Source: Erythrobacter cryptus DSM 12079 (GTDB taxonomy: Bacteria; Pseudomonadota; Alphaproteobacteria; Sphingomonadales; Sphingomonadaceae). From it: a stretch of 64,000 nucleotides of DNA. Position numbers and translations under genes: made by a program. Under the pieces are notes generated by a model that was given only the letters and a program-made list of their open reading frames with translations, ran no database searches and had not been told where the DNA came from. The stretch is taken from the NCBI RefSeq assembly GCF_000422985.1, contig NZ_AUHC01000001.1:434001-498000 (forward strand), read 5' to 3'. This document shows, piece by piece, positions 22,222 to 26,713 of the stretch; within the stretch, counting starts at the first letter, position 1, and every line of letters starts with the position of its first letter.

Positions 22222-23445
22222 ATGCAGAAAATCAAAGTCGCCAACCCCGTCGTCGAGCTTGACGGTGACGAGATGACCCGGATCATCTGGCAGTGGATCC
22301 GCGAGCGCCTGATCCTGCCCTATCTCGACATTGATCTGAAGTATTACGATCTTTCGATCCAGAACCGCGATGCCACCGATGATCAGGTGACGGTCGATTC
22401 CGCCTATGCGATCAAGCAGTATGGCGTGGGGGTCAAGTGCGCCACCATCACCCCGGACGAGGCGCGGGTCGAGGAATTCGGGCTCAAGAAGATGTGGAAG
22501 AGCCCCAATGGCACGATCCGCAATATCCTCGGCGGCGTGGTGTTCCGCGAGCCGATCGTGATCGACAACGTGCCGCGGCTGGTGCCGGGCTGGACCGATC
22601 CGATCGTGGTCGGTCGCCATGCCTTTGGCGATCAGTATCGCGCCACCGACACCCGCATCCCCGGCCCCGGCAAGCTGCGCCTGGTGTTCGACGGCGAGGA
22701 CGGCACCAAGATCGATCTTGATGTCTTCGACTTCCCCAGCGCCGGGGTGGCGATGGCAATGTACAACCTCGACGATTCGATCCGCGACTTTGCCCGGGCG
22801 AGCTTCAACTACGGCCTCTCGCTCGGCTGGCCGGTTTACCTTTCCACCAAGAATACGATCCTCAAGGCCTATGATGGGCGCTTCAAGGACCTGTTCCAGG
22901 AAGTCTTCGACACCGAGGGTTTTGCCGAGAAGTTCAAGGAAAAGGGCATCGTCTACGAACACCGCCTGATCGACGACATGGTGGCAAGCGCGCTCAAGTG
23001 GTCGGGCAAGTTCGTCTGGGCGTGCAAGAACTATGATGGCGACGTGCAGTCCGATACCGTGGCGCAGGGCTTCGGCAGCCTCGGGCTGATGACCAGCGTG
23101 CTGATGACCCCGGATGGCAAGACCGTGGAGGCAGAGGCCGCGCACGGCACCGTCACCCGCCACTATCGCCAGCACCAGCAGGGCAAGGCGACCAGCACCA
23201 ACCCGATCGCCTCGATCTTCGCCTGGACTCGCGGGCTCATGTATCGCGGCCGCTTCGACAACACGCCCGATGTGGTGCGCTTTGCCGAAACGCTCGAGAA
23301 AATCTGCATCAAGACGGTCGAAAGCGGCCAGATGACCAAGGACCTGGCGCTGCTGATCGGCCCCAACCAGGCCTGGCTGACCACCGAGCAGTTCTTCGAG
23401 ACCATCGTCGCCAATCTCGAGAAGGAAATGGCCTCCTGGGCCTGA
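22222..23445 (+). CDS. icd: NADP-dependent isocitrate dehydrogenase (eukaryote-like type)
   Basis: This 407-residue TCA enzyme oxidises isocitrate to 2-oxoglutarate with NADP. The N-terminal [13 protein letters not shown], the [12 protein letters not shown] substrate loop, [24 protein letters not shown] and [18 protein letters not shown] place it in the homodimeric subfamily shared with eukaryotes and alphaproteobacteria, not the E. coli type. Length is normal. It is transcribed alone and converges with the NYN gene (49-base gap). Confidence 0.97.
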
Positions 23446-23494
23446 GGCAGGCGCGGCGCATGCCGCGTACGCAGGGCCGGGTGGCGCGCGGGCT

Positions 23495-24799
23495 TCAGCC
23501 TGCCGCGCCTTGCCTGCCCTCGCCCGCCTCATCCGCTGCGCCCGGCCCCTCCTCGGCAGCGATGCCGAACCAGTCGCTCAGTGTCAGCTGGTCCTCGCTA
23601 TCGAGATTGACCCCGGCATCATAGGCCAGCTGGATGAGGTTGGCGAGGAAGGCCTGGGCGATCTCATCGGCACCGGGCGCCGGGCTCTCGGTCAGCGGCG
23701 CCCCGCCGAAATGCGCACCCCGCACCACGAAATTGAGCGCCGCACGCCCCACCGGCGTCGGCGAATCGGCCAATTGGTCGCGGATCGCGCGGGTGATTTC
23801 GGCGAGGTTGAAGGGATACTCGGCAAGATACTCGGCAATCGCCTTGAAGATCACCGGCCAGGCCTCTGCCGGCAGCCGCGGCAGATCGACCACCCGGGCA
23901 AGCAGGTCGATCAATTCGGGCAGATCGCTTTCGGCCACGGTGGTGTCGGGCGCAGAGGGCGGTTCGTGGCGCTCCTCGTCCCACAGGTGATACTGGTCGA
24001 GCCGCGCGTTGGGCAATTGCAGCGCCGCGACCGCCGCGGCAAAGCCATTGCCGCCCCAGCGCGCCTCGCGCAGGCCCGGCACCGCGGCCGCGGCCTTCTG
24101 CGACAATTGCGCAAGATTGAGCGGCCTGGTCGCCTCGTTGTATTCACCCTGAACGAACAGGGCGAAGGCATCGAGCGCATCGTCAAGATCGACCGCGGCG
24201 AGCGCCGTGCTGCCCGCTGCGGGCAAGGAGACCGGCACCGGCGCCACCGCGGGCGGACGCAGCAGATCGCCGATCGCCTCGAAATTGAGCACCCGGTCGG
24301 CCACCGAAACATAGGCGCGCGCGGCATTGCCCGGCGAGAGCACCGCAATGCCGCGGCCATGCGCGCGCAGGCGATGAAGCAGCGGGGTGAAGTCCGAATC
24401 GCCCGAGGCGATCACGAACTCATCGAAGCCCGTGGGGTGCTGGAGCAGATCGAGCGCATCGATGACGATGCGGATATCGGCGGCATTCTTGTCCCGCGCG
24501 AGGGTGGGCGTGTCGACCACCTCGAACCCGGCGCTCACCCACAAGGGCCGAAAGCGCGAGAAGAAACGCTTGAAATCGCTGCCATCCTCCTGCCTGCCAT
24601 CGATCACGTAGCCGGCCGGGTTGAGATAGCAGCGCGCCACCAGCCAGCGCCGCCGCTCGCTCACCAGATAGCGCTCGGCAAGCGCTTCGAGGAGCACATC
24701 GGGCAGGTTGGCAAAGCGCAGGGCAAGGTCGGGATCGAGATTCCACAGCCCGAGAAAGATATTGTCGAAATCGACCAGAATGATGCTCTTGTTCACCAC
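23495..24799 (-). CDS. NYN-domain (LabA/DUF88-like) putative ribonuclease
   Basis: This 434-residue protein opens with a NYN/PIN-like nuclease domain (residues 1-175). The acidic set is Asp10 and Asp12 in LVDFDNIF, Asp108 and Asp114, and Asp134 and Asp136 in ASGDSDFTPLLHRL, a full metal site. Residues about 215-260 (LNLAQLSQKAAAAVPGL to GNGFAAAVAALQ) resemble an OST-HTH/LOTUS RNA-binding domain, and a further helical domain follows. Two adjacent GTG codons (24799 and 24796) follow GGGGGGA, so the start is certain to within one codon. The RNA target is unknown. It is divergent from the antiporter gene. Confidence 0.75.
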   Translation of the reverse strand: MVNKSIILVDFDNIFLGLWNLDPDLALRFANLPDVLLEALAERYLVSERRRWLVARCYLNPAGYVIDGRQEDGSDFKRFFSRFRPLWVSAGFEVVDTPTLARDKNAADIRIVIDALDLLQHPTGFDEFVIASGDSDFTPLLHRLRAHGRGIAVLSPGNAARAYVSVADRVLNFEAIGDLLRPPAVAPVPVSLPAAGSTALAAVDLDDALDAFALFVQGEYNEATRPLNLAQLSQKAAAAVPGLREARWGGNGFAAAVAALQLPNARLDQYHLWDEERHEPPSAPDTTVAESDLPELIDLLARVVDLPRLPAEAWPVIFKAIAEYLAEYPFNLAEITRAIRDQLADSPTPVGRAALNFVVRGAHFGGAPLTESPAPGADEIAQAFLANLIQLAYDAGVNLDSEDQLTLSDWFGIAAEEGPGAADEAGEGRQGAAG

Positions 24800-24946
24800 C
24801 AATCCCCCCAATTGATGCCGCGCGCATGGTTTGGGCGACTGCGCAGGAAGGCGCAATTGCCTTTTGCGCTCCACGCCTTGCCCGGTTGCCGCGAAGGCTG
24901 CGATACCGCGGGTGACAGGCTGCGCTGCGCGCGTTAAGCCTTCGCC

Positions 24947-26713
24947 GTGGCAGGCGAACTTGCTCCCTCTCCCGTTCTTTCCGATGCGCTGGTAATCCTC
25001 GGCGCGGCGGGAATCGTCATTCCGGTCTTCGCGCGCTTCCGCATCACCCCGATCATCGGCTTCATCCTCATCGGGGTGGCGGTCGGCCCCTTCGGCCTCG
25101 GCTCGCTGGTCGAGCGTGTGCCCTGGCTCACCCATATCACCATCACCAATCCCGAGGTGCTTGCCCCCTTTGCCGAATTCGGGATCGTGCTGCTGCTCTT
25201 TGCCATCGGCCTTGAACTTTCGTTCAACCGTCTGTGGCAACTGAGAAAGCTGGTGTTTGGCCTCGGCGCGCTCGAGCTTCTCATCATCGGCTCCTCGCTG
25301 GCGCTGCTGTTCGGGCTTTCGGGCACGCTCGCATGGCCAGGAGCCTTGGCGCTGGGCTTTGCGCTGGCCTTTTCCTCGACCGCGATGGTGCTGCCGATCT
25401 CGGGCACGCGCACCCCGGTAGGGCGTGCGGCGCTCTCGATGCTGCTGTTCGAGGATATCATGATCGTGCCGATCATCTTCCTCCTGGGCGCGCTCGCTCC
25501 CAACGCCCAGGCTGAAGGCTGGGAGGGGCTTTTCACCACGCTTTGGCAGGGCGGCCTGGTGGTCACGGTGCTGCTGGTGGTGGGGCGTGTCGCCCTGCCG
25601 CGCCTGTTTGCCCAGGCGGCGCGCACCAAGAGCCCCGAACTGTTCCTCGCCGCCTCGCTGCTGGTGGTGATCGGGGCCAGCCTTGCCACCGCGATCACCG
25701 GCCTTTCCCCGATCGTCGGCGCGCTGATCGCCGGGCTGCTGATCGCCGAGACCGAGTATCACACCGAAGTCGAACTGATCATGGAGCCGTTCAAGGGGCT
25801 TGCCCTCGGGGTCTTCCTGATCACCGTGGGGATGAGCATCAATCTCGTCGAGATCGGCGCCCAGATCGGCACGCTGGCCGTGGCGGTGGTGGGCGTGCTG
25901 GTGTTCAAGGCGATCGTCACCGGCATCCTGCTGCGGCTGATGGGGGCGCGGCGCGGCACTGCGGCCGAGACCGGGGTGATGATGGCCTCACCCTCGGAGA
26001 CCACGCTGATCGTGCTCGCCGCGGCCACCAGCGCGCTGGTGATTGATCAGGAAACGGCGCGCTTCTGGCAGACCGTCACCGCCATCGGCCTTACCGTCAC
26101 CCCGCTGCTCGCCCGGCTTGGCGCGGTGATCGCCCGCAAGGTCGATGGCTCCCCCACCGATCTCGAGGATGATGGCGATGAGCCGCGTACCATCATCGTT
26201 GGCGGCGGGCGCGTGGGGCGGCTGGTGGCGGACATGATGCGCGTTCACGCACAGCCCTATGTCATGATCGACAGCAACCCTGATCTCATCCTGGAGGCCA
26301 AGCGCGATGGCTATCGCGCGGTCTTCGGCGATGCCGTGCGCGGCGATGCGCTGGCGCGGCTGGGGGTGGAAAGTGCCCCGGCCGTGGTGCTGACGATGGA
26401 CGAGCCGGTGCTGGCGCAGCGGCTCGTCACCAAACTCAGGCGCGAATATCCCGAGCTTCTCATCGTCGCCCGCGCGCGCGATCCCGATCACGCCGCCGCG
26501 CTCTACCGGGCCGGTGCCAGCCATGCCGTGCCCGAAACGCTCGAGGCCTCGCTCCAGCTTTCCGAGGCGGTGCTCGTCGATATAGGCGTGGCCATGGGCC
26601 CGGTGATCGCCTCGATCCACGCCAAGCGCGACGAATATCGCGAACAGCTCGAACGCGAGGGCGGCCTTAGCGAAAAGCCGCGGCTGCGCACCAGAACCAG
26701 CACGGCCGGCTAG
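24947..26713 (+). CDS. CPA2-family cation:proton antiporter with TrkA-N domain (KefB/YbaL-like)
   Basis: This 588-residue inner-membrane protein has 12 or so helices (residues 5-390), with family motifs GPFGLGSLV, ALGFALAFSSTAMVLP and SPIVGALIAGLLIAET. A cytosolic RCK/TrkA-N domain follows, with the nucleotide-binding GGGRVG at 419-424. It is expected to export K+ or Na+ in exchange for protons, gated by NAD(H) or a thiol adduct. No KefF/KefG-type ancillary gene is adjacent. It starts with GTG at 24947; a TTGCCC box at 24878-24883 is a possible -35. Its stop shares a CTAG with the next gene. Confidence 0.88.
   Translation: MAGELAPSPVLSDALVILGAAGIVIPVFARFRITPIIGFILIGVAVGPFGLGSLVERVPWLTHITITNPEVLAPFAEFGIVLLLFAIGLELSFNRLWQLRKLVFGLGALELLIIGSSLALLFGLSGTLAWPGALALGFALAFSSTAMVLPISGTRTPVGRAALSMLLFEDIMIVPIIFLLGALAPNAQAEGWEGLFTTLWQGGLVVTVLLVVGRVALPRLFAQAARTKSPELFLAASLLVVIGASLATAITGLSPIVGALIAGLLIAETEYHTEVELIMEPFKGLALGVFLITVGMSINLVEIGAQIGTLAVAVVGVLVFKAIVTGILLRLMGARRGTAAETGVMMASPSETTLIVLAAATSALVIDQETARFWQTVTAIGLTVTPLLARLGAVIARKVDGSPTDLEDDGDEPRTIIVGGGRVGRLVADMMRVHAQPYVMIDSNPDLILEAKRDGYRAVFGDAVRGDALARLGVESAPAVVLTMDEPVLAQRLVTKLRREYPELLIVARARDPDHAAALYRAGASHAVPETLEASLQLSEAVLVDIGVAMGPVIASIHAKRDEYREQLEREGGLSEKPRLRTRTSTAG

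Follow-up and report, generated by a model that had tools for sequence, protein, structure and literature searches.

What does the gene on the minus strand at 23495..24799 encode, and on what would its product act? The window, the whole 64,000-nucleotide stretch of Erythrobacter cryptus DSM 12079 that was analysed, holds at this place a real protein-coding gene: the open reading frame gives 434 amino acids plus a stop codon from a GTG start, this start residue is also that of close relatives in the alignment, and a GGGGGG run that may be the ribosome-binding site ends 5 bases upstream of the GTG. We put a probability of roughly 0.55 on the product being a metal-dependent endoribonuclease that a portable LOTUS/ROQ-like reader module directs to folded RNA. 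Such a protein would be a stand-alone enzyme: its N-terminal NYN domain would cut RNA, and the winged helices of its C-terminal LOTUS-like and ROQ-like domains would bind folded RNA, either hairpins or duplex stems, and so guide the nuclease to particular transcripts or tRNA-like RNAs. The analysis itself established where the domains begin and end, that the acidic site is invariant, that a confident model has a ROQ-like fold, and which modular architectures occur.

Relatives were gathered by scanning genome contigs with a six-row alignment, which returned 374 pattern matches; 203 of these are relatives, a number well beyond chance. Of the 203, the top 80 were kept as family loci, and 67 of these 80 best matches extend to residue 400 or further. 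Alignment A2 (50 rows) joins the window protein to 49 of the 80 loci, those left out being mostly near-copies; A3 and A4 (43 rows) are without six short forms and L103, and two loci with broken frames (L052, L092) were kept out of the alignments. In the window protein, NYN is the only Pfam domain above its cut-off (residues 6-171, 75.3 bits, E = 9.4e-21, cut-off 24.2); NCBIfam yielded no domain, and the PADLOC LabA-like NYN model matched at 5.7e-6. The Pfam NYN model matched all 50 aligned members (E up to 0.1). Together with the structural match below, this places a PIN-like NYN nuclease domain at residues 1-182 (24254..24799, minus strand). Invariant in all 50 rows are D10, F11, D12, N13, K104, D108, D114, S132, D134 and D136, of which D10 (24770..24772), D108 (24476..24478), D134 (24398..24400) and D136 (24392..24394, all minus strand) make up the acidic site. 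The original prediction of a complete acidic metal site, which had singled out D134, stands, because nine of the listed residues, these four included, are unchanged in 50 of 50 members.

Structure comparison (VIA) with the full AlphaFold2 model of the window protein (mean pLDDT 88.5) agreed with this assignment: residues 1-183 matched 2qip with Z = 18.7, the mouse MARF1 NYN domain with 17.6 and the human one with 17.0. Human MARF1 is described as an endoribonuclease with an acidic patch of Asp358, Asp426, Asp427 and Asp452 (PMC6294520, available text). Judging from the order of motifs, D10, D108 and D134 would be the counterparts of Asp358, Asp426 and Asp452, and the step from D108 to D134 is 26 residues, equal to that from Asp426 to Asp452. 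Metal-dependent RNase activity is reported for the MARF1 NYN domain and for a bacterial CRISPR-associated NYN protein in the portions of PMC6294520 and PMC11346440 available; by analogy with both, the window protein is probably an RNase.

Past approximately residue 200, the sequence forms two separate domains (204-285 and 291-418), both of high confidence in the models, which follow a low-confidence linker at residues 183-203 (24191..24253, minus strand; pLDDT below 50 at 187-200). We assign the first of these, at 23945..24190 (minus strand), to a LOTUS-like (OST-HTH-like) winged helix on the basis of profiles and models. In a second model built from 43 rows and limited to the tail (residues 203-420, pLDDT 92.3), its part comprises helices at model positions 3-20, 27-37, 45-48 and 50-57 followed by strands at 63-65 and 69-72, an order of helices and two strands that, as modelled, is a winged-helix topology. 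The Pfam OST-HTH model matched none of the 50 members (E up to 0.1), and none in 10 members even at E up to 10; the positive control, L004, which is the sole short NYN protein of the genus put to Pfam and carries NYN plus OST-HTH, was found at 1.3e-8. The best single link from the middle domain to OST-HTH, as far as sequence goes, is the relative L110, in which residues 266-331 approach the Pfam OST-HTH cut-off (E = 9.3e-5, 22.7 bits against 23.8) and the family's own middle-domain profile matches the same stretch (268-326).

Comparison of profiles pointed the same way. The middle-domain profile matched nine short relatives with 72% probability, or 31% over gap-poor columns, where the real score lay above 150 of 150 shuffles; against 24 OST-HTH domains over gap-poor columns the probability was 11%, again above 150 of 150 shuffles. 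The margin was thin for a diverse LOTUS set (real score 18.68 vs 18.14 among shuffles). Column shuffles that included mostly-gap columns were discarded: they produced absurd scores near 130-137 over few columns (three of the best five listed), and in a second such shuffle 19 of 300 reached the real score, so they were replaced by gap-poor columns. For the middle domain, the top-scoring structural match was residues 5-80 of 9rvz_C, a chain of the Egalitarian-BicD-RNA complex whose protein its row does not name (Z = 7.1 over 72 residues, covering window residues 204-277, 23969-24190), followed by 1t6s, a Chlorobium protein of unknown function (6.7), ScpB 6juv (5.7), SelB 1lva (5.6) and, at Z = 4-5, MukEF and transcription-factor winged helices; values below 8 may reflect merely a common arrangement. 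Among the 50 matches listed for the tail model, whose Z values re-score only Foldseek's own choice, there was no LOTUS structure. The LOTUS-like region of the original prediction thus fares in part: the weak profile matches, L110 and the modelled winged helix support it without proving it, the Pfam OST-HTH result (0 of 50) speaks against it, and the lack of a LOTUS entry among those 50 structural matches rules nothing out.

The second domain, at residues 291-418 (23546..23929, minus strand), had been expected to be a third, uncharacterised helical domain; it exists, but it is not uncharacterised, since its predicted fold is a specific known one, that of the ROQ domain with which Roquin, a regulator of human immunity, holds RNA hairpins. 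The full model superposes on Roquin ROQ 3x1o with Z = 11.2 and an rmsd of 2.8 over 122 residues (VIA). With the tail model, the 13 best entries were all Roquin ROQ (Z = 10.8-11.4, alignments of 120-123 residues at rmsd 2.7-3.0), Z dropped to 4.6 for the next match limited to the C-terminal domain, and Foldseek ranked ROQ first (probability 0.99, E = 0.27). An attempt to establish ROQ homology by sequence failed: when 44 C-terminal sequences were compared with human ROQ by hhalign, the probability was 1.3% and the score 16.4, which at least 5 of 200 shuffles exceeded (best shuffle 20.9). The Pfam models PF21206 and PF18386, both matched by the human ROQ domain, were not among the seven families matched by the 50 members (E up to 0.1). 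Because sequence comparison with human ROQ finds nothing, we describe the C-terminal domain as having, in the models, a ROQ-like fold over its whole length, a likeness of fold rather than demonstrated homology.

In Roquin, the ROQ winged helix binds stem-loop RNA (PMC4614863, available text), and alanine at K220, K239, K259 or R260 abolishes or strongly lowers hairpin binding (PMC5603727, available text). In a gapless register of 49 residues set by eye, R352 (23744..23746, minus strand; arginine in 42 of 44 rows), at the start of the ROQ-like recognition helix, lies opposite K239 and may be its counterpart, while K220, K259 and R260 have none; the wing that bears K259 and R260 in Roquin is shorter in the window protein. 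Also basic and near-invariant is R340 (40 of 44 rows). RNA contacts common to the two domains would at best be partly conserved, and a likeness to ROQ near the last two helices, seen by eye, is a lead only. We infer that the LOTUS-like and ROQ-like domains bind RNA, and by analogy with Roquin they may prefer structured RNA. The protein is plausible as a candidate post-transcriptional regulator, as had been suggested.

A profile of the C-terminal domain was run over four sets of genomes, and the genomes matched, each count including the centre genome, were 6 of 398 for Pseudomonadota, 4 of 296 for the L038 phylum (one of the four, L125, spurious), 1 of 148 for the L086 phylum and 7 of 150 for the L097 family. 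L125 was rejected as a family member and removed from the counts, its frame looking antisense and of low complexity. Among 16 distinct proteins from 17 loci (L107 and L199 are the same place), 12 have NYN, one LOTUS-like and the ROQ-like domain, two have two LOTUS-like domains, one (L124) has NYN and the ROQ-like domain without a LOTUS-like domain, and in one (L110) a RelA/SpoT domain (5.4e-16) replaces NYN. The last is encoded at L110:1483-2940 (G768:C4), with L112:9632-11077 (minus strand) being the same gene; it is a single case, the C-terminal 285 residues having matched only their own genome among 385 of the class, and the 19 and 20 matches listed for tblastn of L110 against plasmids and phages all fell within its RelA/SpoT part. 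The LOTUS-like/ROQ-like module moves between architectures and is found beside enzymes linked to RNA, and its fusion to RelA/SpoT points to the reader, rather than the nuclease, as the common theme. Toxic small alarmone synthetases (toxSAS) act on tRNA ends (PMC11559606, available text), and tRNA-like RNA is therefore one candidate ligand of the module.

A more conservative account would see a NYN-OST-HTH (LabA-like) protein of the usual bacterial kind that carries an additional helical domain, whose likeness to ROQ is convergent and serves protein contacts or dimerisation, not RNA. We hold this to be rather unlikely. It would fit the lack of a sequence relation to ROQ and the fact that NYN-OST-HTH fusions have been known since 2010 (PMC2848206, available text), and it draws on six Sphingomonas proteins of about 298 amino acids without a ROQ-like domain, which group as a single clade (100/96) within the sphingomonad group; because these relatives have none, the enzyme can manage without it. 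Against convergence, the ROQ match is specific and takes in the whole domain, filling the top 13 entries before the drop from Z = 10.8 to 4.6, the basic residues R340 and R352 are near-invariant, and L124 keeps the ROQ-like domain with NYN though its LOTUS-like domain is gone.

The nucleic acid could instead be DNA, or a DNA/RNA hybrid, in which case both winged helices would bind DNA. T4 RNase H, which is a flap-type 5' nuclease, is among the structural matches of the NYN part (Z = 8.3), many winged helices bind DNA, and MukEF and transcription-factor winged helices (Z = 4-5) appear for the middle domain. We nevertheless consider a DNA substrate very improbable: the best matches act on RNA, the MARF1 NYN nuclease for the N-terminal part and ROQ for the C-terminus, and chains of the Egalitarian-BicD-RNA complex top the middle-domain list (Z = 7.1 for a chain whose protein is not named in its row).

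An endoribonuclease with a built-in reader of folded RNA can be set beside several known systems. Bacterial proteins that join an LK-nuclease (DUF88/NYN) to OST-HTH, termed 'LabA-like', were described by Anantharaman, Zhang and Aravind in 2010 (PMC2848206, available text). With these the window family shares an N-terminal NYN domain followed by one or two LOTUS-type winged helices, a stand-alone gene and a sporadic spread; it differs in that its middle domain escapes the Pfam OST-HTH model in all 50 members and, relative to the proteins as described in the available text of that paper, in adding the C-terminal ROQ-like domain. Animal MARF1 likewise has an NYN endoribonuclease and LOTUS in one chain, with acidic residues in the same order; unlike the window protein, it has RRMs and many LOTUS domains and works with the eukaryotic decapping complex. 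With the ROQ domains of Roquin-1 and Roquin-2 (3x1o, 4z30 and others), what is common is the fold of the whole C-terminal domain (residues 294-418, Z of about 11), whereas no sequence relation is detectable and the wing is shorter in the window protein. Roquin itself, unlike the window protein, also contains HEPN, RING and CCCH-finger domains, recruits a deadenylase and is not known to have a nuclease domain. The NYN protein of Bacteroides fragilis, also bacterial, is an Mn2+-dependent RNase (PMC11346440, available text); it lies within a type III CRISPR system, whereas the neighbours here, icd and kefB, are non-CRISPR genes. In animals, the PIN-type RNase Regnase-1 (MCPIP1) and Roquin act on overlapping stem-loops (PMC5031192, available text). 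The same functional pairing of a PIN-type RNase with a ROQ reader of structured RNA may be present here, by analogy and not by homology, in one bacterial chain instead of two animal proteins.

Bacterial NYN-LOTUS proteins are already known, and for the ROQ-like part we found no description. In the literature covered, which was open-access with subscription papers mostly outside it, 'ROQ domain' and 'LOTUS domain' never occurred together; titles and abstract beginnings of the matches listed for ROQ/NYN/bacteria and for prokaryote/winged helix/Roquin mentioned no bacterial ROQ; and the word 'roquin' is absent from the HEPN survey PMC3710099 and from PMC8195603. That literature treats ROQ as a domain with which animals read hairpin RNA and which is studied in connection with autoimmunity. 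A bolder proposal, which we regard as doubtful, is that a portable bacterial module of a LOTUS-like and a true ROQ domain, joined to NYN or RelA/SpoT, reads stem-loop or tRNA-like RNA and that animal ROQ descends from it. If this were true, RNA control in the style of Roquin and Regnase would have a bacterial root. The window protein hints at a one-protein bacterial counterpart of this animal RNA-decay system; with a bacterial ROQ fold welded to a MARF1-type RNase, the origin of ROQ could be put to the test, and a single-chain RNA-decay enzyme that selects its own targets would be at hand. A second handle would come from the RelA/SpoT fusion, one reader with two outputs, by which the RNA ligand should be easier to find.

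Proteins with all three domains occur sporadically in Actinomycetota, Pseudomonadota and other groups. Among the best 80 of the 203 relatives are loci from sphingomonads, Actinoplanes and other Micromonosporaceae, Thermomonosporaceae, Nocardioides, Arthrobacter/Pseudarthrobacter, Variovorax/Piscinibacter, Thermodesulfobacteriota, a Hydrogenedentota bin and a few others. In the window's order, the whole protein matches 6 of 396 genomes (E <= 1e-12): besides the window's own genome, these hold three proteins of nearly full length, a short form and a short NYN protein. Partial matches only were found in 14 of 24 genomes of the same genus; we read 15 short NYN proteins, 14 from 13 of those genomes and one from G037. 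In its own genome, the window protein is the sole NYN match and no OST-HTH match was found; possibly it replaced the short NYN proteins of its congeners.

The gene fills the spacer (23446-24946) between isocitrate dehydrogenase (icd, 22222..23445, plus strand; Pfam Iso_dh) and a kefB-like cation/proton antiporter gene (24947..26713, plus strand; Pfam Na_H_Exchanger and TrkA_N). An icd match was present in 24 genomes of the same genus. In 9 of them kefB lies 108-162 bases past icd; in the other 15, no kefB occurs inside the up to 1.5 kb available after icd, and none of the 24 carries the window's gene at this site. A simple script found a T-tailed hairpin in seven of the nine congener icd-kefB spacers (one of the seven weak) and none between icd and the NYN gene in the window, where a terminator scan of 23400-24970 gave two terminator-like matches vs a shuffled mean of 1.2. 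GC content is 66.8% for the NYN gene, 66.9% for kefB and 61.3% for icd. The simplest reading is that the NYN gene was gained at the icd-kefB site in the window's lineage. This site comparison agrees with the earlier view that no neighbour explains the gene, as does clustering of open reading frames across the 80 family loci, a search for operon partners that used crude longest-frame calls in GC-rich DNA. The gene itself clustered in 63 loci and a frame antisense across it in 11. No conserved operon partner emerged: neighbour clusters reached at most 10 loci each, both 10-locus clusters are confined to Actinoplanes, and those that span lineages (3-6 loci) include an ABC-type ATPase, a LysR-type regulator (named by eye) and Vsr.

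As a defence or abortive-infection effector, the module would sense foreign or phage-altered structured RNA, upon which NYN (in L110, RelA/SpoT) would shut translation down; we judge this unlikely, a defence role being possible but not favoured. The low frequencies of the C-terminal domain (6/398) and of the whole protein (6/396), the gain at the icd-kefB site, partial relatives on plasmids and the PADLOC NYN match (5.7e-6) are consistent with it, as is the alternative RelA/SpoT effector, a domain related to the tRNA-attacking toxSAS (PMC11559606, available text). Near the family gene lie a methyltransferase, restriction genes and Vsr in L030 and L066, and DISARM DrmD with Vsr in L105; these neighbours were, however, hand-picked, ten of them from five loci, and PADLOC matched strongly in three (L030, L066, L105), weakly in L028 and not for the L097 protein. 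Defence marker genes occurred at 8 of 80 family loci vs 1 of 20 background stretches in a seed search (five of the eight supplied the seeds), which is no clear enrichment; we do not claim one, and the link to defence islands is weak. Further against a defence role, the window's C-terminal domain was unmatched in phage and plasmid collections, no relative was confirmed in viral contigs, the gene sits between housekeeping genes in the window, and the family gene is present in many Actinoplanes and Arthrobacter. The tail model had no convincing match in a viral library, the highest probability being 0.23 among the 50 matches listed, which rules nothing out. As a separate observation, the Vsr-type nicking endonuclease genes, accompanied by restriction-modification or DISARM genes, lie at L030:1572-2096 (PADLOC Vsr), L066:4795-5361 and L105:7703-8131 (both by clustering and tblastn), beside three distant family members.

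In a midpoint-rooted tree of the NYN part, the sphingomonad group nests among Actinomycetota, and a long branch (0.73) leads to the window protein. The simplest account of the Sphingomonas short forms is that the ROQ-like domain was lost once; a similar short form is carried on the Sphingobium plasmid pTomTYG74b. One locus (L026), on a 4.4 kb contig of a Dechloromonas bin, clusters with the sphingomonads in this tree, and its placement under Dechloromonas is likely a binning error.
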